Source: Actinokineospora auranticolor (GTDB taxonomy: Bacteria > Actinomycetota > Actinomycetes > Mycobacteriales > Pseudonocardiaceae). From it: 64,000 bases of DNA. The notes beneath the pieces are model-generated. The model saw only the letters and a list, made by a program, of their open reading frames with translations, made no database searches and was not told the origin of the DNA. Both the position numbers and the translations under genes were made by a program. The stretch spans positions 1 to 64,000 of the forward strand of contig NZ_PTIX01000032.1 of NCBI RefSeq assembly GCF_002934265.1, written 5' to 3'. Below are positions 3,635-33,242 of the stretch, piece by piece; positions within the stretch are counted from its first letter, which is position 1; every line of letters starts with the position of its first letter.

Positions 3635-6600
3635 TCATGAACGCCTACCTCGGCGCCAGGGCTGGTACACCAGCGTGACGCCCAGAAGGGTGAGCAGCAG
3701 GCCGAGGCTCAGCCACCGCAGGACCGGGAAGCCGGTGTAGCTGAGGTCCTGGTCGGTGGCGGTGTCGTCGGTCGTGGTCGTGGTGCCGCCGTTGGTGCTG
3801 GTGGTGGGCGTCTCGGTCGTCGGGGTGGGTGTCTCGGTGCTCGTCTCGGCGGCGCTCACCTCGGTGGTGGCGGACGCGGAGTTGTCGTCGGCGGAGTCGA
3901 GGACGTCCTGGACGGCGAGGGTGGCGATGTTGACCAGCGGTCCTTCGCGGTCGACGCGGGCCGTGACGGTCAGCGTGCGCTGGTCCGCGGGGCCGACCCA
4001 GTCGAGGTGCCAGAGGCCGGTGGCCGGGTCGTAGGTGCCCTGGCTGGTGACCGCGGAGATCAGGGTGATCCCCTCGGGCAGCAGGTCGGTGACCTGGACG
4101 GACGGCGCGGCCGACGGGCCGGTGTTGGCGATGGTGACCACCCAGGTGATGGTGTCGCCGACGGTGGCCTTGGTCTGCTCGGTCGTCTTGGTGACCGACA
4201 GGCCCGTCTGCCTGGTCAGGGTGGTGCTGACCGCGCTGTTGTTGTCGCCGCTGTTGGCGTCGGGGGTGCTGGAGGTGACGCGGGCCGAGTTGCTGATGGC
4301 CGTGCCGTCCAGGTCCGCGGCGATGGCGGCGCGGAGCCGCACCGTGACGGTGGCCGCGGGGGCCAGCGCGTCGAGCGGGCAGGTGACCACGCCGTCGGTG
4401 TTGGCGCAGGTGGCGCCGGTGCTGGAGACCAGCGTGGCGCCCGCGGGCAGCGCGTCGGTGAGCACGACGTCCCGGGCGAAGGCGTCGCCCGCGTTGGTCA
4501 CGGTGACCACCCAGGTGGCCTGGGTGCCGGGCACGATCTGCCCGCCGTCGACGCTCTTGGTGACCCGCAGGTCGGGGCTGGCGTTGAGCTGGGTGGTGAC
4601 GGCCGCCGAGTTGTCGTCGGAGTCCTGTTCGGCGGTGGTGGAGGCGACGGCGGCGCTGTTGGTGATCGGACCCGCGGCGGCGTCGGCGCGGACGGTGCCG
4701 GTGATGGTCAGCGGGGTCGAGGCGCCGGGGTTGATGTCGCCGATGGCGCAGATCAGGGCGCTGCCGCGGGTGACGCAGCCGTTCGGCGGGGTGGTGACCT
4801 CGACGGAGGCGGGCAGCAGGTCGGTCACGGTGACGCCGCGGGCGGTGGAGATGCCGTTGTTGGTCGTGGTGACCAGCCAGGTGATCGTGTCGCCCGGCCG
4901 GTGGTTGGCCTGGTCGGCGGTCTTGACCACGGACAGGTCGGCCTGCGGCGCGGACGGGCCCGCGACGCTGGCGGCGTTGTCGATCGGGTCGCTGTCGGGG
5001 TCGTCGGACAGCACGGTCGCGGTGTTGCTGACCTCGTCGGGGACGAAGCCCGCCGCGACGTCGACGACGATCGTGATCTGGATGGTCTCCAGCGGGTCGA
5101 GGTCGCCGGGCGCGCAGGTGACGAGTTGGCCGTCGATGACGCAGGAGCCCTTGGTGGCGGTGGCGGTGGCCGGGGTCAGTCCGGTCATCAGCGGGTCGGT
5201 GACGAGGACGCCGGTCGCCGCGGACGGTCCGTAGTTGTAGACGTCGAGGGTGAAGGTGGCCTGGCCGCCGGGGGTGACCGAGGCCGGGGTGAGGGTCTTG
5301 TCGATGCCGAGGTCGACCGAGCGGGCGACGTCGGAGGCGACGGCCGCGGTGTTGTTGTCCTGGTCGGTGTCGGCGGTGGTGGAGGTGACCGAGACCGCGT
5401 TGTCGAGTTGGCCGCCGACGTAGTTGGCGTCGACGTGGGCGGTGATGGTCAGGATCCGGTCGGTGTCGGTGGTGACGGTGCCGAGCACGCACCGGAGGGT
5501 GCGGTCGGTGAGGGTGCAGGACGGGTCCGCGGCGACCAGGGTGACGCCCTTGGGCAGGGTGTCGACCAGGACGACGTTGCGGGCGTCGGAGGGGCCGCCC
5601 GCGTGGACGGTGATGCCCCAGGTGATGTCCTCACCGGCGGTGACCTGGGCGGGGCCGTTCATGGTGACGCCGAGGTCGGTGACGGAGGTGACGTCCTGGC
5701 TGACGAACACCGAGTCGTTGCTCGGGTCCGGGTCGGGGGTGGCGGACTCGACCTGGGCGGTCACGGCGGCGTCGCCGGTGACGTCGGAGTCGAAGACGCC
5801 GCGGACCACGAAGTCCAGGGACGCGCCGGGCGGCAGGTCGCCGAGGTCGCAGGCGATGGTGTTGTCGCAGGTGACGCCCGGCGGGGCGGTGATCGTGATG
5901 TTCTGCAGCTCGCCCGGGAGTCCAAGGGAGAACCGGGTCTTGCTCGACGTGGACGGGCCCGCGTTGCGGACCGTGGCCCGGATGGTGGCCTCGGAGCCAG
6001 CGGTGAGCTGGGCGGCTTCGAAGTCGGCGACCACGGACAGGTCGGCGAAGGCGGTGACCGGCTTGGTCAGGGCGACCGAGTTGGTGTCGGTGTCGAGGTC
6101 GATCGAGTCGGAGTCGGCGGTCACCGTGGTGGCGAGGTCTTCGACCCGGTCGGCGGCGACGGTGCCGACGACGGTGATCTCGACGCTGGCGCCGGGTTCG
6201 AGGGTGTCGACGACGCAGGTGGCGGTGGTGTCGCAGGTGACCCCGGCGGGGGCGTTGACCACGACGGACTGGAGGCCGTCGGGCACCGGCACGGTGATGG
6301 TGACGTTGCGGGCGATCGAGGGGCCCTGGTTGGTGGCGGTCGCGGTGATGGCCGCGGCGGAGCCCGCCACCAGCGGGTCCGGGCCGAGGGTGGCGGCGAG
6401 GACCAGGTCGGACACGACCTGCACGGCGCCGGTGGCGGTGACCGAGTTGTCGGTGTCGTCGGGGTCGTCGGTGGCGCTGGTGGTGGTCGCGACGATGTCG
6501 AACGGCCCGTTGGCGTCGGCGCCGAGGTCGCCGCCGATGTCGATGGTGACCGTGGCGCCGGGCGCCAGGGTGCCGATCACGCAGACCACCGTGTTGTCGC

Positions 6601-22930: not shown

Positions 22931-23683
22931 TCAGACCGCCGCGCACACCACCAAGACCACGGTCGTCGCCACTTCGGCGTTCGCGCCGAAGACGTCCCCG
23001 GTGACCCCGCCGAAGCGGCGGACGAGGTGCCGGGTCAGCAGCGCCACCGCGCCCGCGGCCAGGAGCGCGGCCAGCGGCCCCAGCCAGGGCCTGCCGGGCA
23101 CGACCAGCGGTCCGGCGCAGACCAGCGCGGCCAGCCAGGCCGCCGGGACCGCGGGGTGCTGCGTGCCCGCGACGAGCGCGCCGAAGCCCTCGGGCCGCGC
23201 GGGCGGCACGCCCCGGCGGCAGCACCAGGAGAACGCGGCCCGGCCCGCGACGAGGGCGTACACGACCGCGGGCCACCGCGCCGTGCCGCCCAGCGCGCCC
23301 AGGGCCACGGCCTGGACGCCGATGGTGATGACCAGCGCGACGGTGGCGAACGCGCCGACGCCGCCGTCCTTCATCACCGCCAAGGCGCGTTCGGATGGGC
23401 CGTAGCAGCCGAGGCCGTCGGCGGTGTCGGCCAAGCCGTCGAGGTGCATCCCGCGCGTCAGCAGCGCGGTGGCGCCGACCGCGAGCAGACCGGACATCAG
23501 TGGCGGTAGGCCCGCGAGCGACAAGAGGTACAAGAGCGTCGCGACGACGCCACCGAGCAGCACACCGACCACGGGTGCCCAGGTGATGGCGAGACCCCTG
23601 GTTCGCGCGTCCGTGCCGTCCTGGTGGATCGGGAACGTGGTGAGCCAGTGCAAGGCGAGCCGCGCGCCCGCGAGGTGGCTCAT
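22931..23683 (-). CDS. cobS: Cobalamin synthase (adenosylcobinamide-GDP ribazoletransferase)
   Basis: CobS joins adenosylcobinamide-GDP and alpha-ribazole(-phosphate), the final step of the nucleotide-loop pathway, in the membrane. The 250-residue length is normal for the family. Family motifs are visible: RLALHWLTTFPI at the N-terminus, then GMHLDGLADTADGLGCYG followed by MKDGGVGAFA, and a C-terminal GGVTGDVFGA. Several hydrophobic helices are present. The ATG overlaps the cobU stop by 4 bp (ATGA), so the two are coupled. With cobU it can complete either de novo made or imported cobinamide, which fits the corrinoid uptake operon 3-9 kb away. Confidence 0.95.
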   Translation of the reverse strand: MSHLAGARLALHWLTTFPIHQDGTDARTRGLAITWAPVVGVLLGGVVATLLYLLSLAGLPPLMSGLLAVGATALLTRGMHLDGLADTADGLGCYGPSERALAVMKDGGVGAFATVALVITIGVQAVALGALGGTARWPAVVYALVAGRAAFSWCCRRGVPPARPEGFGALVAGTQHPAVPAAWLAALVCAGPLVVPGRPWLGPLAALLAAGAVALLTRHLVRRFGGVTGDVFGANAEVATTVVLVVCAAV

Positions 23684-24219
23684 CCGCGCAGCCGCAGCGG
23701 GATCCCGGCGACGAGCAGCAGCACCTCGGCGCAGTGCGCGGCGACGGCGGCGTTGAGCGCGCCCAACTCGTCCCGGAATATCCGGCCCGCACGGGTCGAG
23801 GGGATGACCCCGAGCCCGACCTCGGCGGAGACGAGCACCAGGCGGGCGGGGCAGGCGGCGACCGCGGCGGCGAGGTCGACGCGGGCCTCGGCGGCCTCGG
23901 GGCCGCGGGTCCAGCCCACGTCGTCGAGGACGCCGGTGAGCCAGGTGGCGAGGTCGTCGACCAGCAGCGGCGGGTCGTCGGGTCGGGCGGCGCGCAGCCG
24001 GGCGGGCAGGTCGGCGCGGGCCGGGACCTCGACCGTGCGCCAGTGCGCGGGCCTGCGCGCGACGTGGTCGGCGATGCGCGCCGACCACTCGGTGTCGGCG
24101 GGGTCGCGGCGGGCGGTGGCCAGGTAGTCGACGGGGCCGTCGCCGGTCAGCAGGCCCTCCGCGTGGGCCGACTTGCCGGACCGGGCACCGCCGAGCACCA
24201 GCGTCCGGGGGGTGGTCAT
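23680..24219 (-). CDS. cobU: Adenosylcobinamide kinase / adenosylcobinamide-phosphate guanylyltransferase
   Basis: A bifunctional cytoplasmic enzyme of 179 residues that phosphorylates adenosylcobinamide and transfers GMP to it. The P-loop GGARSGKS is at residues 10-17, followed by the family motif YLATARRDPADTEWSARIADH with its putative GMP-accepting His. VSAEVGLGVIPS and the C-terminal GRIFRDELGALN are also typical of CobU. The start is close to the divergent cobF start (42 bp between them), which leaves no room for a riboswitch. It ends in an ATGA overlap with cobS. Confidence 0.95.
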   Translation of the reverse strand: MTTPRTLVLGGARSGKSAHAEGLLTGDGPVDYLATARRDPADTEWSARIADHVARRPAHWRTVEVPARADLPARLRAARPDDPPLLVDDLATWLTGVLDDVGWTRGPEAAEARVDLAAAVAACPARLVLVSAEVGLGVIPSTRAGRIFRDELGALNAAVAAHCAEVLLLVAGIPLRLRG

Positions 24220-24249
24220 GGCCCCATCTAACCGGGGTCCACCGGCGGT

Positions 24250-24255
24250 TAGGGT
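24250..24255 (+). promoter_or_regulatory. Minus-10 box TAGGGT of a probably leaderless cobF transcript
   Basis: TAGGGT fits the actinobacterial TANNNT minus-10 pattern and lies 6 nt before the cobF ATG, so the transcript would start at or very near the start codon. No Shine-Dalgarno is visible before cobF, which agrees with a leaderless mRNA. Confidence 0.4.
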
Positions 24256-24261
24256 CACGGC

Positions 24262-25035
24262 ATGAGTGAGGCGACGCGGGTGGCGGTCATCGGGATCGGG
24301 GCCGGTGACCCCGGTCACGTGACGGTGGCGGCGGTGGAGGCGCTCAACCGGGCGGACGTGTTCTTCTTCCTGGACAAGGCGGACGCGGCGATCGAGCTGT
24401 CCGAACTGCGACAGGCGATTCTGGACGTTCACGTGCCCGGTAAGGGCTACCGGCTTGTCCGCACCCCGGATCCGGAGCGGTTGCGCACGGAGGCCGGTTA
24501 CCCGGAAGCGGTGGAGGACTGGCGGAAGCGGCGCGCGGACGTGTGCGAGCGGATGATCGCCGAGAACCTGCGTCCCGGTGAGACGGGCGCGTTCCTGGTG
24601 TGGGGCGACCCTTCGCTCTACGACAGCATCATCTCCGTCGTCGACGACATCCGGGCGCGGGGCGCGCTGGCGTTCGAGGTCGAGGTGCTGCCGGGGATCA
24701 GCAGCGTGTCCGCGCTCGCCGCGCGGTGCCGTACGACGCTCAACCAGGTCGGCGGGGCCGTGCAGGTGACCACGGGCAGGCGGTTGGCCCAGGGTTGGCC
24801 GGAGGGTGTGGACGACGTCGTTGTGATGCTCGACGCGCGGGACGCCTACCTGGAGCTGGCGGACGACCCCGACCTGCACATCCACTGGGGTGCGTACGTG
24901 GGCACGCGGGACGAGGTCGTCATCTCCGGGCCGCTGGCCGAGGTGGCCGAGCGGATCCGGGACACCCGCGCGGCGGCCCGGCGGGAGAAGGGCTGGATCA
25001 TGGACACGTACCTGCTGCGGCGGGCGCGGGGGTAG
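24262..25035 (+). CDS. cobF: Precorrin-6A synthase (deacetylating), CobF
   Basis: An S-adenosylmethionine-dependent methyltransferase of 257 residues, the family's normal length. It methylates C-1 of precorrin-5 and releases acetate in aerobic cobalamin synthesis. The N-terminal VAVIGIGAGDPGHVT is the glycine-rich SAM/precorrin methyltransferase motif. VWGDPSLYDS and EVLPGISSVSALAARC are conserved in tetrapyrrole methylases. It is divergent from cobU, and its 3' end overlaps the convergent LysR gene by 38 bp. No other corrin-ring genes are in the window, so the rest of the pathway must be elsewhere if present. Confidence 0.93.
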   Translation: MSEATRVAVIGIGAGDPGHVTVAAVEALNRADVFFFLDKADAAIELSELRQAILDVHVPGKGYRLVRTPDPERLRTEAGYPEAVEDWRKRRADVCERMIAENLRPGETGAFLVWGDPSLYDSIISVVDDIRARGALAFEVEVLPGISSVSALAARCRTTLNQVGGAVQVTTGRRLAQGWPEGVDDVVVMLDARDAYLELADDPDLHIHWGAYVGTRDEVVISGPLAEVAERIRDTRAAARREKGWIMDTYLLRRARG

Positions 25036-26088: not shown

Positions 26089-27066
26089 ATGCGTACGGTT
26101 CCCCTGCTCGCGGCGGTGGTCCTCGCGGCCGCGATGGTCGGTGTGCACACGGCCGATGCCGCGCAAGACGCGAATTCCCAGCCGCCCACGTACTCAACTG
26201 TGAAAGAGGTCTTCTCCCCCGACGGCACCATCACCCGCACACGGGTGACGCTTCCCGTGCCCACGGAGTCGTTCGCGCCCGTAGTGGCGGATGTGGTGCC
26301 GGTGCAGCAGACCGGTCCGTCGAGTTCGCGGTTCGACCTGGTTTTCGTCGGCGACGGGTACACCGCCGCTGAGATGGCGACCTACCACCAGCACGTGGTG
26401 AACCGGTGGAACGAGCTGACCCAGGTCGAGCCGTTCCGGTCGATGAAGGGCTCGTTCAACGTGTGGCAGGTCAACGTGGTGTCGCCGGAGTCCGGTGTGG
26501 ACAACGAACCGTCGAGGGGCGTGCGGCGGAACACCGCGCTGGACATGTACTTCTGGTGCGACGACATCGAGCGGCTGCTGTGCGTCGACGAGGCCAAGGC
26601 GAAGCGGTACGCGGCGCTGGCACCCGCGGTGGACCAGGTGCTGGCGGTGGGCAACAGCACCAAGTACGGCGGCGCGGGCGGCGGTGTGGCCACGTCCTCG
26701 GGTGGCAACGCGCAGTCCGGGCAGGTCGTGGCGCACGAGTTGGGGCATTCGATCGGTGGGCTGGCCGACGAGTACGACGTGCCGAACGACCTGTACACCG
26801 GCCGGGAGCCGCAGGAGGCGAACGTGTCGGTGTACTCGAGTTCGTCGATGGCCCGGTATCGGACGAAGTGGTACTCGTACCTCGGTAAGCCGTCTCCGGA
26901 CGGTGGGGTGGTGGGTACCTTCCAGGGCGCCTACTACTACAAGCGCGGCATCTACCGTCCGACGGAGAACTCGTTGATGCGCACCCTGGGGCGCCCGTTC
27001 AACCTCATCGGGTTGGACGCGATGAAGGCCGCTATCGCCAAGAAAGCGCCCGGGGTCAGGGGATGA
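26089..27066 (+). CDS. Secreted M64-family metallopeptidase
   Basis: A 325-residue secreted protein. The signal peptide is clear (MRTVPLLAAVVLAAAMVGV, cleavage near ADA-AQ). The zinc site HELGHSIGGLADEY has His216, Glu217 and His220; it and the upstream FDLVFVGDGYTAAEM match M64 (IgA peptidase-like) proteins. GGAGAG precedes the ATG. Substrates of bacterial M64 enzymes are mostly unknown outside the clostridial IgA protease, so the immunoglobulin link is not implied. The 3' end overlaps the convergent ECF S-component gene by 11 bp. The divergent LysR gene may regulate it. Confidence 0.88.
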   Translation: MRTVPLLAAVVLAAAMVGVHTADAAQDANSQPPTYSTVKEVFSPDGTITRTRVTLPVPTESFAPVVADVVPVQQTGPSSSRFDLVFVGDGYTAAEMATYHQHVVNRWNELTQVEPFRSMKGSFNVWQVNVVSPESGVDNEPSRGVRRNTALDMYFWCDDIERLLCVDEAKAKRYAALAPAVDQVLAVGNSTKYGGAGGGVATSSGGNAQSGQVVAHELGHSIGGLADEYDVPNDLYTGREPQEANVSVYSSSSMARYRTKWYSYLGKPSPDGGVVGTFQGAYYYKRGIYRPTENSLMRTLGRPFNLIGLDAMKAAIAKKAPGVRG

Positions 27067-27829
27067 ACTCGGCGCGGCGGGCCGCGCGGCGGAACACGCG
27101 CAGCAGCACCGGTCCGGTGACCAGCACCAGCACCACGGTGGTGATGGCCCGTCCGAGGTCCCAGCCCAGCGAGGTGGCGAGGGAGAACAGGACCAGCCGG
27201 GTGAGGTTGTCCTCGACCGGCGCGCCGGGCTGGAACGACAGCGAGGTCCCCTCCCCCAGCGTGAACGGCCAGAACGACAGGTTGAGCAGCAGTCCGTACA
27301 GCAGGCCCGCGGCGGCGCCGTAGCCTGCCAGCAGCAGCGGTTCGAGGCGCCCGGTCGCCCTCGGCAGCAGCCCCGCGCCGAGGGCGACCCAGGCGGCGCC
27401 GAGCATCTGGTACGGCAGCCACGGGCCGACGCCGCCGGTGAGCAGCGCGGAGGCGAACAGGGTGGTGTTGCCGAGCACGAAGCCGAACCCGGGGCCGAAC
27501 ACGCGGCCCGCGAGGACCATGAGGAAGAAGACGGTCTCGATGCCCGCCGTGCCCGCGCCCAGCGGCCGGATGGCGGCGCCGAGCGCGCTGAGCACGCCGA
27601 GCATGGCCACGGCCTTGGCGTCCATGCCGCCGTCGGCCAGTTCGGCCAGCACGACGGCCAGCGACACCGGGAGCAGCAGCGCGAACACCAGCGGCGCGTC
27701 GGTGCCGTGCGCGAGGCCCGCGCCGGGGCCGACGACCAGCGGCCAGCAGAACGCGACCAGGCCGAGGACGCCCGAGAGCGCCAGCGCGACCGCCGAGCGC
27801 GGTCCGACGCGGACCGGTGGCGCGCTCAC
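27056..27829 (-). CDS. ECF transporter S component, probable corrinoid
   Basis: A 257-residue membrane protein with about six or seven hydrophobic helices, in the position of the substrate-binding subunit of an energy-coupling-factor transporter. It follows the fused EcfA gene with a GTGA overlap; the GTG at 27829 starts VSAPPVRVG. The sequence motifs (GAAIRPLGAGTAGIETVFF, PWLPYQMLGAAWVALGAG) resemble S components annotated next to CbiO/CbiQ-like genes in actinobacteria. The substrate is not evident from the protein itself. The cobalamin riboswitch and the transcobalamin-like proteins of the same operon point to cobalamin or cobinamide. Confidence 0.8.
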   Translation of the reverse strand: MSAPPVRVGPRSAVALALSGVLGLVAFCWPLVVGPGAGLAHGTDAPLVFALLLPVSLAVVLAELADGGMDAKAVAMLGVLSALGAAIRPLGAGTAGIETVFFLMVLAGRVFGPGFGFVLGNTTLFASALLTGGVGPWLPYQMLGAAWVALGAGLLPRATGRLEPLLLAGYGAAAGLLYGLLLNLSFWPFTLGEGTSLSFQPGAPVEDNLTRLVLFSLATSLGWDLGRAITTVVLVLVTGPVLLRVFRRAARRAEFIP

Positions 27830-29433
27830 CGGGTGGCCAGGGCGGTCTCGACGGCGGCGACGGTCAGCCACGGTCGGGGCGCGAGGACCTTGGCGACCTG
27901 GGGTGCGAAGACCGGGGACGACGTGACGACCTGCTCCACCGGGCCGTCCGCCACGATCTCGCCGTCCGCGGTCACGACGACGCGGGTGGCGACCTCGGCG
28001 ACGAACTCGACATCGTGGGTGGCGAGGACGACGGCGTGGCCGTCGCGGGACAAGGCGCGCAGTGCCTCGGCGAGGCGGGTCTTGGCCGGGTAGTCCAGTC
28101 CGCGCGTCGGTTCGTCCAGCAGCAGCACGTCCGGCGACGGGGTCAGGGCGATTCCCAGGACGAGGGCGAGGCGTTGACCTTCGGACAGGTCGCGGGGATG
28201 GCGGTCGTCCGGGATGCCCGGGGCCAGTGAGTCCACCAGGGCGCGGCAGGTGCCCTCGGGTCTACCGGACTCGGTGTCGGCTTGGGCGCATTCGGTGGCG
28301 ACCGTGTGCAGGTAGAGCAAATCCGCCGGTTGTTGGGGAACCATGCCTATCTTGGCGCGACGAGCGGGGGGCTTCAGTTTCGCCGGGTCGGCGCCATCGA
28401 CCACTACGGCGCCACCGGAGCGTTTGCCGCTGCCTTGCAGTGCCCACAGCAGGCTCGACTTGCCGGAGCCGTTGCGGCCCATGACCGCGACCCGCTCCCC
28501 CGTCGTCACCTTGAGGTCTACTCCGCTGACGGCGGTGGTGTTGCCGTAGCGCACGGTTACGCCTGTCGCGGCCAGGATCTCTCTACCGCTCACGGATTCC
28601 GACACCGGCGGTGTGATCGGCTCCAGTCGTTCCCGCAGTGGCCCGGCGAGCCTGCGGGCGTCGCGGATCGACACCGGCGGCGGTGACCAGCCGGCGAGTT
28701 GGCCGAGTCGCACGACCGGTGGCGCTACCGGCGCCTCGGCGAGCACGGTCCCGGGATCACCGTCGACCGGGGCCGCGCCGCCGCCCGGCAACCAGATCAC
28801 GCGGTCGGCGTACTGGGCGACGCGTTCCAGGCGGTGTTCGGCGACGAGCACGGTCATGCCCAGGTCGTGGACGAGCCGGTGCACGGCGGCCAGCACGTCC
28901 TCGGCCGCGCCCGGGTCGAGCGCGGAGGTCGGTTCGTCGAGGACGAGGACGCGGGGGTGCGCGGTGAGCGCCGCGCCGATCGCGACCCGCTGCTGCTGCC
29001 CGCCGGACAGGGTGGCGAGCGCGCGGCCGCGCAGGTCCGCGAGCCCGAGCAGGTCGACGGTCTCCTCGACCCGTTTGCGCATCACCGTTTCCGGCACCGC
29101 CAGCGACTCCATGGAGTACGCCAGTTCCTCCTCGACCGAGTCGGTGACGAATCCCGCCACCGGGTCTTGGCCGACCAGGCCGACGACGTCGGCCAGTTCT
29201 CGTGGTGGGTGCGTGGCGGTGTCGCGCCCGTCGACAACAACGCGACCGGTGAGCTTGCCGCCGGTGAAGTGCGGCACCAACCCGTTGACCGCTCGAAGCA
29301 AGGTGGACTTACCCGCGCCGGTACTGCCCACTACGAGGCAGAGTTCACCCTCCGGCACGAACAGGTCTATCCCGCTCAAGGTGGGCCTGTCCGCGCCGTT
29401 GTACGTCACGGACACGTTGTCGAACCGGATCAC
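27826..29433 (-). CDS. Fused ECF transporter ATPase (EcfA-EcfA', CbiO-like)
   Basis: A 535-residue protein with two ABC ATPase domains. Domain 1 has Walker A GSTGAGKST (36-44), signature LSGGQQQR and Walker B VLVLDEPTSALDP. Domain 2 has Walker A GRNGSGKSS, signature LSEGQRLAL (a weaker form) and Walker B VLLLDEPTRGLD. Such fusions replace the separate EcfA1/EcfA2 pair and energise uptake through EcfT. The GTG start at 29433 overlaps the EcfT stop by 4 bp, and its own stop overlaps the S-component start in the same way. Confidence 0.93.
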   Translation of the reverse strand: MIRFDNVSVTYNGADRPTLSGIDLFVPEGELCLVVGSTGAGKSTLLRAVNGLVPHFTGGKLTGRVVVDGRDTATHPPRELADVVGLVGQDPVAGFVTDSVEEELAYSMESLAVPETVMRKRVEETVDLLGLADLRGRALATLSGGQQQRVAIGAALTAHPRVLVLDEPTSALDPGAAEDVLAAVHRLVHDLGMTVLVAEHRLERVAQYADRVIWLPGGGAAPVDGDPGTVLAEAPVAPPVVRLGQLAGWSPPPVSIRDARRLAGPLRERLEPITPPVSESVSGREILAATGVTVRYGNTTAVSGVDLKVTTGERVAVMGRNGSGKSSLLWALQGSGKRSGGAVVVDGADPAKLKPPARRAKIGMVPQQPADLLYLHTVATECAQADTESGRPEGTCRALVDSLAPGIPDDRHPRDLSEGQRLALVLGIALTPSPDVLLLDEPTRGLDYPAKTRLAEALRALSRDGHAVVLATHDVEFVAEVATRVVVTADGEIVADGPVEQVVTSSPVFAPQVAKVLAPRPWLTVAAVETALATR

Positions 29434-30491
29434 GAGCGCGTCTCCCGTCGAACGAGCGCCACGGGCAGCAGCGCGATCAGCACACCCGCCGACGGCAGCA
29501 GCGGTAGGTCCGGGAAGGACAGGGGTGAGGTGGTCGGCACCAGGTCCGCCGTGCCCAGGGAATCGGCCACGATCGTCACCGCGCCGGCGGCGAGCCCGGA
29601 GCACGCGATGAGGACGGAGCGGACGGTCCACTTGTCCGGTCGGTACCGCGTGCGGCGCACCCGGCGGGAGCCGATCAGCAGTCCGGTCACCGCGAGCAGC
29701 ACCCCGAGCAGGAGCGTCGGCGCGCCGATGATCGCCGGGGCGGCCGAGTCCAGCAGCCCGTAGGCGCCGACGCACAGGCCGATCAGGCCGCCGAAGACCA
29801 GCAGCGCCGTCAGGACGCGGGTCCGGCGCGGCAGTCCGGCCGTGCGGCCGTAGCCCCGGGAGTCCATGGCGGCGGCCAGGTGCAGCGAGCGGTCGAGGCC
29901 GTCCTCCAGCACCGGTACGAGCAGGGTCCGGATCGCGCGGCGGCCACGCGCGGGGTCACCGCGCAGCATCCGGGCGCGGCGCACCGACCGCGCGGACACC
30001 GCCAGCTGCGGTGCCAGCGTCAACGCGACCACGACCGCGGCGCTGACCTCGTAAAGCGCGGCGGGGACCGATTTGAGCAGCCTGCGCGGGTCGGCGAGCG
30101 CGTTCGCGGCGCCGACGCAGCAGAGCAGCGTGGCCAGCTGCAACCCCAGGTACAGCGCGTGCGCGAGCCCCTCGGCGGTGACCGGGCCGCCGATCCGGAT
30201 GCCCGCCGCCCAGTCCGGCAGCGGGATCTCCGGCAGGGTGAACAGCACGGTGGTGCCCGTGAAGCCGCCGACGAGGACGTGGAACACCAGCCGGATGCCG
30301 AGCACGGCGAGCCCGAGTTTGAGGAACATCCCGTACGCCGACGACCAGGGCGCGGCGGCGCGGCAGGTGACCGCGACGAACCCCGCCACGGCCGCGACGA
30401 GGGCCAGCAGCACGGGGTTGGTGGTGCGACTGGCGACGACCGCGAGTCCCAACGCCCACAACCACCACGCCCCGGAGTGCGTTCGGGTCAC
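29430..30491 (-). CDS. ECF transporter transmembrane component T (EcfT/CbiQ-like)
   Basis: A 353-residue membrane subunit that couples the ATPases to the S component. It has several membrane helices. The cytoplasmic coupling motifs are visible as SVRRARMLRGD and AMDSRGYG, matching the two Ala/Ser-Arg-Gly helices of EcfT. The GTG start (30491) overlaps the preceding stop (GTGA). It has an extra C-terminal membrane part compared with a minimal EcfT of about 260 residues. Confidence 0.9.
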   Translation of the reverse strand: MTRTHSGAWWLWALGLAVVASRTTNPVLLALVAAVAGFVAVTCRAAAPWSSAYGMFLKLGLAVLGIRLVFHVLVGGFTGTTVLFTLPEIPLPDWAAGIRIGGPVTAEGLAHALYLGLQLATLLCCVGAANALADPRRLLKSVPAALYEVSAAVVVALTLAPQLAVSARSVRRARMLRGDPARGRRAIRTLLVPVLEDGLDRSLHLAAAMDSRGYGRTAGLPRRTRVLTALLVFGGLIGLCVGAYGLLDSAAPAIIGAPTLLLGVLLAVTGLLIGSRRVRRTRYRPDKWTVRSVLIACSGLAAGAVTIVADSLGTADLVPTTSPLSFPDLPLLPSAGVLIALLPVALVRRETRS

Positions 30492-31336
30492 AGATCCTCT
30501 CGCGCTCTCCGACGCCGCGCGGTGATGGCGGCCAGGGCCGCGAGCACGACAACCACGATCCCGGCGACGATGACCGCCGTGGAGCTACCGGACTCCGCGC
30601 CCGCCGTGGGTTGCGGTGGGGGCGGCACCGTCTCGGATGGGGCTACCGGTGCCGGTATGGCTTCCGCTGACGGTGACTGCGACGGCGGCGGGGAGGATTC
30701 CGACGACGACGGCGTTGAGGATGGCGGTGTGCTCGGTGGTGGCGCGGGTGCCGCTGTCGTTGTCGTGACGGGAGGTTGTACGGCGGCGGGAGCGGCGGGT
30801 TTGCCCGCTGCGGTGGCGGGAGGGGCCTGCACGGCCGTAGTTGTCGGGTTCGCCGCGGGCGGCGGGACCGCGGGTGCGGCCGGGGGTGCCATGGCGGGCG
30901 CCGCGCCCGCGCCGAACGACCACCCCTCGACAGTGCCCGCGCCGGGGTCGCGGTTGCCCGCCCCCTTGGTGCTGTAGGTCCAGGTCCCCCCGCGCGGGGC
31001 GTGCCAGTACGACCAGTACGCGTTGCCCGGTGAGGCGTTGACGCACGGGTCCGCGTCCGGGGCGGGGCGGTTGTCGATGCGGCACACGAAACCGGGCTGC
31101 CGGGTGGGGAACGTGTAGCCGAACCCGGCGTCCGCCAACGCCGCGAGTCCGCTCGCGGGATCGCCCGGCGCGCACCGGGTCTGCACCCCGCCGCCGAGCG
31201 AGCCGAAGTCGACGACAACGGTCACCCCGGAGGCACCGCACGCCGCCGCCGACGCCGGTACCGCGCCGCCGACCAGCCCCGCCGCCGCCAAGAGGGCGGC
31301 GGCGAGGGCGGTGCGCAGGCCCGACCGTGCGGTCAC
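30488..31336 (-). CDS. Membrane-tethered DUF4430 (transcobalamin C-terminal-like) protein
   Basis: A 282-residue surface protein: signal peptide (LAAALLAAAGLVGGAVPASA), one DUF4430 domain (about 30-125), a Pro/Thr/Ser-rich linker of about 110 residues, one membrane helix and the basic tail RRRRARED. The domain carries the family pattern NAYWSYWHAPRGGTWTYS and GTVEGWSFG with a Cys pair (FVCRID, DPCVN). The same domain forms the C-terminal half of intrinsic factor and transcobalamin. It is about 50 percent similar by eye to the next gene upstream and most likely a duplicate. GTG start with GTGA overlap. I infer that it hands corrinoids to the ECF transporter. Confidence 0.85.
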   Translation of the reverse strand: MTARSGLRTALAAALLAAAGLVGGAVPASAAACGASGVTVVVDFGSLGGGVQTRCAPGDPASGLAALADAGFGYTFPTRQPGFVCRIDNRPAPDADPCVNASPGNAYWSYWHAPRGGTWTYSTKGAGNRDPGAGTVEGWSFGAGAAPAMAPPAAPAVPPPAANPTTTAVQAPPATAAGKPAAPAAVQPPVTTTTAAPAPPPSTPPSSTPSSSESSPPPSQSPSAEAIPAPVAPSETVPPPPQPTAGAESGSSTAVIVAGIVVVVLAALAAITARRRRAREDL

Positions 31337-31782
31337 GGGGCCTGGCCGGGAGCGGTGCCCGCGCCGAAGGCCCAGCCCTCGACCGTGCCGGGGGCGGGGT
31401 TGTAGGCGCCCGCGCCACTGGTGCTGTAGGTCCACGAGCCGCCCGGGGTGCCGTGCCAGTAGGACCAGTAGGCGGTGACCGGGGCGCCGTTGCACGGGTT
31501 GGGCTTGGTGTTGATCTGGCACACGAAGCCCGGTTGGCGCGGGACGAACCCGTAGGTGAACCCGGCGCCGGTGAGCGCGGCCAGGCCGGACGCGGGGTCG
31601 CCGAGCGCGCAGGCGGTCTGGATGGTGCCGCCTACGGCGGTGAAGTCGACGATCACGGTGACGCCGGACGTGCCGGAGCACGCGGCGGCTTGCGCGGGTG
31701 CCGCGCCGAGCGCGGTGGTGACGGCCGCGGTGAGGCCTACCGCCGCCGCTGCGGCGGTTCTGCGGAGTACGGCGGTCTTCAC
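31333..31782 (-). CDS. Secreted single-domain DUF4430 (transcobalamin C-terminal-like) protein
   Basis: A 149-residue secreted protein: signal peptide ending near AQAAAC, then one DUF4430 domain with TAYWSYWHGTPGGSWTYS and GTVEGWAFGAG. It has four cysteines in positions matching the tethered paralogue, so disulfides are likely. It has no anchor, so it should be free or bound to a partner such as the barrel protein encoded upstream. The GTG start has a perfect GGAGGT Shine-Dalgarno 6 nt upstream inside the previous gene, and overlaps its stop (GTGA). Confidence 0.87.
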   Translation of the reverse strand: MKTAVLRRTAAAAAVGLTAAVTTALGAAPAQAAACSGTSGVTVIVDFTAVGGTIQTACALGDPASGLAALTGAGFTYGFVPRQPGFVCQINTKPNPCNGAPVTAYWSYWHGTPGGSWTYSTSGAGAYNPAPGTVEGWAFGAGTAPGQAP

Positions 31783-33020
31783 TTGTTACCTCCATGTGGG
31801 ACACGGCGACGGGACACGAGGACAAGGCCGGTTCCGGTCAGCAGCAACAGGACTCCGACCCAGACCCCGGCGGTGGGCTGGAATCCGGTGGCGGCCAACG
31901 GAGGCGTGCGCGATCCGGCGGGCAGCGGCGCGGCGGCCGAGGTGGTGGTCGTCGTGCCACTGGCGGTTGTGGTCGTAGTAGTAGGCGCGGTCGTGGTGGT
32001 GGTCGGCGTGGGGCAGTCCACAGTGGGCAACGCGGCGGTGGCGCCGTCGGCGGTGATGTCGGCGAAGCTCACCCCGGCGATACCGGGGATGGCCTGGGCC
32101 GCGGCACGGGCGGCGGTGGCCGCGTCGAACTCGGACGCGTTGTGCGGGATCGCGCCGCGGTCGGCTTCCGGGCGGTCGCAACCGACCTGGAGGGTGACCA
32201 GGAACGCGACGGCCTTGTCCGCTTCGGCGGTGCGACCGCCCGCGCGCAACGCCTGTGCGGCCAGGCCGGTGCTGTTGGAGTTCTCGATGCCGCCGTCGAG
32301 GAAGGAGCCGTTGGGTCGCTGGTTGGCGACCAGCCAGTCCAGCCCCTTGGTCGCGGGCTGCGCGCGCCCGGCGGCCAGCAGCGCCTGCACGGTGATCGCG
32401 GTGCCGTCCACGTCGGGCAGGCAGGTCGCCTCCTCGAACGGGACCGGGAAGCCGCCGTCGGGACAGGCGGCGCCCGCGAGGTAGTCGACCGCGAGGTCAG
32501 GCAGTTCGCCCGCACGCTTGAGGGTCAGCACGGCCAGTGCCTGGCTGAAGGTGCTCGTCTGGTCGCCGTATTTCGTGGCGTCCGCGAACCGGCCGGTCCG
32601 CGCGTCCATCAGCGCCAGCAGTCGGGCGTGCAGGTCGATCCCGCCGAAGGTCTTCGGGTCGATGCCCTGTGCCTGGGCCACAAGGCCGAGTTTGGCCAGC
32701 GGGCCGACGTAGGACTCACCGCCGCCGGGGAAGGCGTAGTAGGTGGCGTTGGCCGGGACGGCGAGGAACGCGGTGGCCTTCTCCGCCGCGCCCTTGGCCA
32801 CGCCCGCCGCGTCGAGCGCGAGGACGACGTCGGCGGTCAGGCCGTGGTCCGGCATGCCGGGGACGCCCGGGGTGTCGATGTACTCGCCGTCGACCAGCTG
32901 CCTGGCCAACCACCCGGCGGCCGTGTCGTCGGCGGTGACCGCCGCCTGGGCGGGGGCCGTCGCGGTGACCGTGACCGCGACCGCGAACACCGTGGCCGTG
33001 ATCCTCCGGCCTAAACCCAT
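31779..33020 (-). CDS. Transcobalamin-like alpha/alpha-barrel surface protein with LAATG signal
   Basis: First gene of the operon, 413 residues. Signal peptide (RRITATVFAVAVTVTATAPAQA), then helical-repeat segments of the prenyltransferase/terpene cyclase-like toroid (TAAGWLARQLVDGEY, GLDWLVANQRPNGSF, NSNSTGLAAQALRAGG, AIPGIAGVSFADI), a Thr-rich linker, LAATGF, a membrane helix and SRRRVPHGG. NSNSTGLAAQAL strongly recalls the YSTGMAVQAL segment of human intrinsic factor, and the barrel ends with a GVSFADI...VDC stretch like that protein's GKTYLDV...TC. I infer cobalamin binding at the wall, anchored by a class E-type sortase. The start is the ATG at 33020; AGGAG is unusually close (1 nt). Codon 3 is TTA, rare at this GC content. 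Confidence 0.82.
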   Translation of the reverse strand: MGLGRRITATVFAVAVTVTATAPAQAAVTADDTAAGWLARQLVDGEYIDTPGVPGMPDHGLTADVVLALDAAGVAKGAAEKATAFLAVPANATYYAFPGGGESYVGPLAKLGLVAQAQGIDPKTFGGIDLHARLLALMDARTGRFADATKYGDQTSTFSQALAVLTLKRAGELPDLAVDYLAGAACPDGGFPVPFEEATCLPDVDGTAITVQALLAAGRAQPATKGLDWLVANQRPNGSFLDGGIENSNSTGLAAQALRAGGRTAEADKAVAFLVTLQVGCDRPEADRGAIPHNASEFDAATAARAAAQAIPGIAGVSFADITADGATAALPTVDCPTPTTTTTAPTTTTTTASGTTTTTSAAAPLPAGSRTPPLAATGFQPTAGVWVGVLLLLTGTGLVLVSRRRVPHGGNK

Positions 33021-33116
33021 TCTCCTACGCCTCTCGCGCTCGCGGCGGCGTGGGAACCCGGACCCGCGCGACAACGGCGGGGAGCGTCCAGGCTCCGACC
33101 CGCTGTCCTCGACGGT

Positions 33117-33242
33117 GTGCGGAGCAGACCGCGCCCAGCGGGTATTCGGGCTCACCACCGTCTCTCGGTGGCCTACCGTTGCGGGACAGCGCCGGATTCC
33201 GACCGGACTTCCCCCGACTGGGCACGGGTGCGTTCCGCTCAC
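33117..33242 (-). ncRNA. Cobalamin riboswitch
   Basis: On the minus strand the conserved core is plain: GGGGAAG, CCGGTCGGAATCCGG, CTGTCCCGCAACGGT (33175-33191) and the B12-box-like AGCCCGAATACCCGC (33138-33152). The outer helix closes between GTG(AG)CGGA (33234-33242) and TCCGCAC (33117-33123). About 96 nt separate it from the first ATG. In that space ACGCC and GGCGT can pair around GCG/CGC just 5' of the AGGAG, a possible ribosome-site sequestering hairpin. This predicts repression of the uptake operon when cobalamin is plentiful. Confidence 0.92.

Follow-up and report, generated by a model that had tools for sequence, protein, structure and literature searches.

The window analyzed here is a stretch of 64,000 nucleotides from Actinokineospora auranticolor (contig NZ_PTIX01000032.1, positions 1 to 64,000 of the forward strand), in which a cobalamin riboswitch aptamer heads a run of six minus-strand genes: a toroid gene, two small-domain genes, ecfT, ecfAA and ecfS, in that order (Table 1). 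The first gene begins 99 bases after the riboswitch, and every gene junction is a 4-base GTGA overlap. An initial annotation of this DNA had proposed a barrel protein, two small proteins and a full energy-coupling factor (ECF) importer behind a cobalamin riboswitch, and all of these genes are present. The gene set recurs across the Actinomycetota, and thus the operon is not a chance arrangement. Together the results make it probable that the operon encodes a cobalamin-repressed system for corrinoid capture and import, in which a split, transcobalamin-like clamp feeds an ECF importer.

Table 1. Positions of the operon features, of neighboring genes and of the second toroid of the host genome.
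Feature	Position	Strand	Description
Cobalamin riboswitch aptamer (RF00174)	33237-33120	minus	Operon head; cmscan 43.4 bits, cut-off 31.5, E 1.3e-7
Toroid gene	33020 (ATG) to 31779	minus	413 amino acids; signal peptide, alpha/alpha toroid, Thr-rich stalk, LAATG signal
Small-domain protein 1	31782 (GTG) to 31333	minus	149 amino acids; predicted secreted, without anchor
Small-domain protein 2	31336 (GTG) to 30488	minus	282 amino acids; Pro/Ser-rich stalk, C-terminal membrane anchor
ecfT	30491-29430	minus	CbiQ-like coupling component; CbiQ E 1.6e-8, 34.9 bits, cut-off 25
ecfAA	29433-27826	minus	Two fused ECF ATPases; ABC_tran, two stretches, E 2.1e-49
ecfS	27829-27056	minus	Predicted substrate component; ECF_trnsprt E 3.2e-6, 27.7 bits, cut-off 30.7
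M64-type metallopeptidase gene	26089-27066	plus	Head-on into ecfS; 11-base overlap with the ecfS end
cobS, cobU, tetrapyrrole methylase	22931-25035		Beside a LysR regulator; about 2-4 kb from the operon end
Second toroid	C5:50490-51512 (L121:6491-7513)		Outside the window; 383-amino-acid open frame, likely start 50490; no sorting signal
Riboswitch of the second toroid	C5:50271-50413		Cobalamin riboswitch, 32 bits

The small-domain proteins

Small-domain proteins 1 and 2 are 65% identical within the domain. Protein 2 ends in a hydrophobic stretch followed by RRRR, and the tails of the two proteins agree with the proposal that one is free and the other membrane-tethered. The label DUF4430, which the initial annotation had given to both, did not hold: at its cut-off the Pfam DUF4430 model (PF14478) matched neither protein, had no match in the host genome and recognized none of 63 family members. 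A Pfam scan of a wider set of small domains also returned no DUF4430 match over the cut-off, with 1 of 22 reaching E 0.043. Searched by sequence against the PDB, the small-domain alignments found no transcobalamin, the best match of one alignment being a designed repeat protein (E 0.0094). Sequence and Pfam searches thus left the relationship undetected, and it took a fold search and a comparison of profiles to reveal it.

The model of small-domain protein 1, built from 63 sequences, has a pLDDT of 86 and the elements E10-16 E24-30 H36-42 E47-50 E53-60 E76-81 E104-109. We read the strand pair after the helix as a hairpin, and the order of the modeled elements is consistent with a beta-grasp fold carrying a post-helix hairpin. 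When the model was compared by Foldseek with 350,542 PDB chains, every one of ranks 1-16 was a transcobalamin, intrinsic factor or haptocorrin entry whose chain length was that of the whole carrier or of the beta domain; probabilities were 0.77-1.00, albeit at weak E-values (best 0.016, none <=0.001). PDB 5np4, counted as the isolated transcobalamin beta domain, is among the small-domain matches. The comparison with transcobalamin suggested at the outset therefore favors the proposed likeness for this domain.

A broader small-domain alignment (A7), composed of both window domains and 20 matches from the phylum survey described below, was linked by hhalign to an alignment of 25 PF14478 matches (A6) over 79 columns, with P 2.6e-7 and a probability of 93%; as a control, the toroid alignment gave P 0.12 against DUF4430. 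Since this profile link and the predicted fold stand without Pfam DUF4430 matches, we conclude from profile and model that the window small domains are a sister family of DUF4430 and not members of it. On its modeled fold, a beta-grasp with a hairpin after the helix, the domain is also assigned to the transcobalamin-like clade of the SLBB superfamily, for which parts of Burroughs et al. 2007 (PMC1796856) give the same description. Both proteins further match NCBIfam SCO2322_fam at E about 2e-6 (protein 1, 1.5e-6), under the curated cut-off.

The toroid

The toroid ends in LAATG, a hydrophobic stretch and RRR, and scores 17.6 bits with NCBIfam LPXTG_anchor (cut-off 15.9), which bears out the wall-sorting signal proposed for the barrel. 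The host genome has six sortase matches. By its sequence the toroid is a predicted sortase substrate, and it would be anchored to the wall in vivo.

The proposed alpha/alpha-barrel fold is likewise supported, as the profile of the toroid family (alignment A2, 49 sequences) matches squalene-hopene cyclases in the PDB (E 6.4e-31). Pfam Prenyltrans matched 43 of the 49 toroids at E<=1, and Cobalamin_bind, the eukaryotic cobalamin-binding toroid, matched 16 at the same threshold (best E 0.0045). The window toroid also matches NCBIfam SCO2321_fam at E 1.2e-28, under the curated cut-off. Class II terpene cyclases carry a catalytic Asp pair motif, DxDD. This motif is complete in 0 of the 49 toroids and none has Asp at its fourth position, so we rejected the candidate reading that the toroid functions as such a cyclase.

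Distribution and probable cooperation of the two domains

A similarity scan with small-domain protein 1 gave 130 relatives, and the 80 best of them were compared as loci. By title these belong to the Actinomycetota, except for one Chloroflexota bin, and frequent gene orders are toroid-small-(small)-T-AA-S and toroid-small-toroid-small-T-AA-S. Both domains are complete in five single open frames, small-toroid with LAQTG in L067 and small-toroid-toroid in L012, L017, L025 and L038; additionally, a toroid-small frame in L062 is interrupted by the contig end and L029 holds a partial copy. A model of the L067 fusion, built on the trimmed alignment A4, has a pLDDT of 88.9 and a pTM of 0.72. The four loci with the longer fusions also hold another toroid gene, on the minus strand in L012, L017 and L025 and on the plus strand in L038; it is preceded by a cobalamin riboswitch and has a long C-terminal part that is not toroid, and in three of these loci its strand is opposite to that of the neighboring toroid-small pair.

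At curated cut-offs, Rfam places a cobalamin-clan riboswitch somewhere in 51 of the 80 loci. Our own model, built from 30 sequences whose matches arise by construction, found a riboswitch within 700 bases upstream of 79 of the 98 toroid/small-domain gene runs with that much sequence, and upstream of 42 of 59 gene runs in loci outside model building. It also recovered the riboswitches of several loci that the Rfam cut-off missed, among them L003, L006, L014 and L067. Lone toroids are preceded by riboswitches as well. The head riboswitch of four Lentzea operons (L008, L009, L010 and L027, near 4650-4790) scores best as AdoCbl-II (RF01689), not RF00174. Six Amycolatopsis loci (L068, L073, L074, L076, L081 and L082) combine a membrane-anchored small domain with ECF genes; neither a toroid nor a riboswitch was found in them.

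Across 296 genomes of the phylum, the small domain (E<=1e-6) occurs in at least 45, a lower bound because this survey with the narrower small-domain alignment A1 scored the best 15 candidates per genome, and PF14478 (E<=0.001) occurs in 51. The two genome lists overlap only in G040 and G171, and in each both kinds stand in one cluster; the order in G040 is cobalamin riboswitch, PF14478 protein, toroid, small domain, ecfT, ecfAA. In L155 a PF14478 match over the cut-off shares a riboswitch operon with a toroid, a small domain, ecfT and ecfAA.

Domain numbers were also compared within genomes, covering 30 chosen loci minus L015 and L040. Strong toroids (E<=1e-50) and strong small domains (E<=1e-30) are equal in number in 21 of 28 genomes (Spearman 0.80), and 0 of 20,000 permutations gave as many equal counts (mean 11.3); these statistics overstate the agreement, as the genomes are related and entered the set by way of loci selected on the small domain. 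The counts are partly lower bounds, because the best 150 candidates were scored in part of the set, and they leave out weaker toroid matches in 10 of the 28 genomes (G302, G303, G304, G305, G308, G311, G314, G316, G322 and G323) and weaker small-domain matches in three (G310, G316 and G317).

Five natural fusions, riboswitches before 79 of the 98 gene runs and equal counts in 21 of the 28 genomes, together with gene adjacency, support a probable cooperation of the two domains. The initial annotation's picture of split transcobalamin-like halves thus gains from the transcobalamin-type beta domain, the toroid fold and the fusions, although the toroid itself lies nearer to terpene cyclases. That last observation fits an alternative that we consider rather unlikely, in which each kind of protein has a binding partner of its own: the toroid would be a scaffold that binds wall polysaccharide or resembles an enzyme, while corrinoid binding and delivery to the ECF transporter would fall to the small-domain proteins alone. 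One-chain fusions, matched counts and adjacency would be surprising for a mere scaffold, as would the riboswitches before lone toroids, and the incomplete DxDD argues against an enzyme-like role. On the other side, three genomes have a small domain without a toroid, so that the pair is not obligatory everywhere. Furthermore, the separate transcobalamin beta domain (PDB 5np4) binds cobalamin alone, according to the part of PMC5599065 that treats the isolated domains.

Free and anchored forms

The host genome encodes a second toroid on contig C5, preceded by a cobalamin riboswitch of its own (Table 1); no small-domain gene was found beside it on C5. The genome therefore holds two toroids and two small-domain proteins, and the count of one barrel and two small proteins in the initial annotation is true of the operon but not of the genome. 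The reading in which one barrel is shared by two DUF4430 proteins was dropped because of this second toroid. It is 45% identical to the window toroid, and of the 25 sequences that match it best in the loci examined, 23 are unanchored toroids (52-65% identity). A tree of 68 toroids places 16 of the 21 unanchored ones in one supported group (98/94). Two Actinokineospora loci (L003, L006) have an unanchored toroid directly after ecfS, and three Micromonospora loci (L028, L050 and L055) show the order riboswitch, free toroid, free small domain, riboswitch, LPxTG toroid, membrane small domain, ECF genes.

Neighboring toroid-small pairs were classed as anchored-membrane in 28 cases, free-free in 23, anchored-free in 13 and free-membrane in 4 (Fisher p 1.7e-5, kinship ignored), with membrane tails called at a hydropathy cut-off of 1.6 for the pair counts and 1.55 for the tree and Fisher test, so that borderline tails change class. 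Such tails are those of L045 (1.59) and of the second small domain of L018 (1.58, classed free). Twelve of the 13 anchored-free pairs come from toroid-small-small operons like that of the window, and the thirteenth is the borderline L045. As the pair counts favor anchored-membrane and free-free combinations, the toroid and small-domain complement of the host appears to consist of one soluble and one surface set, and across relatives toroids and small domains tend to form an unanchored pair and an anchored pair.

The existence of both halves in unanchored form invites two further ideas. One, tentative and on balance doubtful, is that of a secreted two-piece "corrinophore" that would close on a corrinoid away from the cell, dock at the anchored pair and pass its ligand to a new corrinoid-specific S component. 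Such a ligand-glued protein relay, made from split transcobalamin halves, is a possibility to which we give limited credence. The other is that the secreted set withholds corrinoid from neighbors or senses it while the ECF transporter serves another purpose. We regard this as very improbable, given that many of the 80 loci place anchored and free forms in one cluster with ECF genes.

The ECF transporter and its possible ligand

The operon joins ecfT to paired ATPases, both above their Pfam cut-offs, and by sequence this combination identifies an ECF transporter. EcfAA also exceeds the cut-off of the NCBIfam cbiO subfamily (226.3 against 211.8 bits) and matches ECF_ATPase_1 at E 2.1e-81, below its cut-off. 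The full ECF importer of the initial annotation is thus supported for the T and ATPase components, whereas ecfS scores just under its Pfam cut-off. The EcfS family has a mean column identity of 72% across 30 members, and ecfS is conserved beside ecfT and ecfAA in relatives' loci. The initial annotation had named membership of EcfS in another vitamin family as speaking against its proposal. No curated vitamin family of Pfam or NCBIfam was matched over its cut-off, so EcfS does not clearly belong to another such family, but no match marks it as a B12 S component either. PF14478 proteins stand beside ECF ATPases and distant EcfS relatives (E 9.8e-17 and 2.3e-11) in two further loci (L163:7405-12562 and L164:7239-10936), and the L163 cluster also holds a toroid; this suggests that the same S family serves DUF4430 systems.

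Near the operon end lie cobS, cobU and a tetrapyrrole methylase gene, whose product we read by sequence as CobF, and CobN is also encoded in the genome. Because the genome encodes CobN, CobU, CobS and the CobF-like methylase, the host may make B12, and it may use the operon for salvage. With these genes nearby, cobinamide or other precursors are possible ligands. An alternative, unlikely in our view, is that the imported compound is a corrinoid precursor or another cobalt compound (cobinamide, cobyric acid, cobalt) and not complete cobalamin. Salvage of incomplete corrinoids would fit cobU and cobS about 3-4 kb away, the T component matches CbiQ, described as "cobalt transport", and EcfS has no assigned specificity. 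In contrast, the transcobalamin-type fold of the small domain argues for a whole corrinoid, and the S component has no CbiM or CbiN match in Pfam. The clamp could still accommodate a precursor corrinoid, in which case the ligand changes and the mechanism stays.

Proposed mechanism

Based on these results, we infer that a corrinoid clamp built from two separate proteins, which delivers to an ECF importer, is the most economical reading. The riboswitch would permit expression of the operon under cobalamin shortage. Secreted toroids would then supply the alpha half, and secreted beta-grasp proteins the beta half, of a clamp like transcobalamin; the corrinoid would bind to one of them and draw in the other, so that the cavity closes. 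A precedent comes from human transcobalamin, whose separately produced alpha and beta domains elute together only in the presence of cyanocobalamin (PMC5599065, in the part on the separate domains). The unanchored forms would be small-domain protein 1 and the toroid whose gene lies outside the window; the wall-sorted toroid and membrane-tethered small-domain protein 2 would be the anchored forms, which may concentrate the ligand at the membrane for hand-over to EcfS and import by the transporter (S, T and AA).

Several observations weigh against this clamp, in addition to the weak Foldseek E-values and the relatedness of the counted genomes mentioned above. The PDB matches listed for the L067 fusion model are terpene cyclases at ranks 1-14, with transcobalamin first at rank 26 (E 1.4e-4), and the narrower alignment A1 gives P 1.1e-3 and a probability of 20% against DUF4430. 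Counts of the two domains are unequal in seven of the 28 genomes (G303, G306, G312, G313, G315, G316 and G318); three of these (G313, G315 and G318) have a small-domain gene and no toroid at E<=1e-10, and the two Amycolatopsis genomes among the three also show no riboswitch (L068, L073). Within the window, the wall-sorted toroid adjoins the free small protein, not the tethered one. The EcfS family has no relative in a PDB sequence search and no characterized relative. Finally, the host may make B12, whereas bacteria with such proteins usually lack key steps of its synthesis, as stated in parts of Burroughs et al. (PMC1796856).

If the proposed clamp is correct, it reveals how corrinoids are caught outside the cell in many actinobacteria, a step for which our search of open-licence papers returned no functional study in this phylum, and it provides a naturally split counterpart of the animal B12 carriers that bears on the origin of transcobalamin. 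It would also offer a ready two-protein, ligand-induced dimer and point to a role for the SCO2321/SCO2322-type families as well as for an orphan ECF S component that is widespread.

Comparison with known systems

The nearest described systems are the bacterial SLBB-toroid fusions of Burroughs et al. 2007, for which B12 scavenging was predicted from an extracellular toroid joined to a transcobalamin-like SLBB domain, second SLBB paralogues and CbiO/CbiQ neighbors; the clade is named there in low-GC Gram-positives, planctomycetes and euryarchaea (PMC1796856, in the parts that treat this clade). The window shares these elements. In contrast to the fused chains of that account, the system here is split, belongs to the Actinomycetota, has free and anchored forms and stands behind riboswitches identified by sequence. 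The initial annotation had stated that the function of such a split system is not established in actinobacteria. Our search of the open-licence literature found no functional study of the split actinobacterial form, but B12 scavenging by its fused kin was already predicted by Burroughs et al., and the system is less new than first stated. As far as this search shows, the split, free and anchored form is new, whereas the prediction of B12 scavenging by bacterial toroid and beta-grasp proteins, as set out in those parts of PMC1796856, is not.

Among sequence families, DUF4430 resembles the small domain in its profile link and in the gene clusters shared in G040 and G171, and differs in that its Pfam model recognizes neither the window proteins nor their family. 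The NCBIfam SCO2321 and SCO2322 families are matched by toroid and small domains, respectively, always below curated cut-offs, and their names carry no function.

The ECF architecture is that of ECF-CbrT, a characterized B12 transporter whose structure we take to be deposited in the PDB. Since the EcfS family matches no PDB chain, it presumably has no match to CbrT either, and we know of no surface capture proteins for CbrT. Surface capture of B12 ahead of an importer is known from the B12-binding surface lipoproteins of Bacteroides, which have other folds and work in a Gram-negative, outer-membrane setting.

Transcobalamin, intrinsic factor and haptocorrin combine, like the proteins described here, an alpha/alpha toroid with a beta-grasp domain that carries a hairpin after the helix. 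The animal carriers are one chain, whereas the corresponding domains here are separate predicted proteins that are fused in few relatives. Additionally, the window-type toroid is closer to bacterial terpene cyclases, and an ECF importer takes the place of receptor endocytosis.

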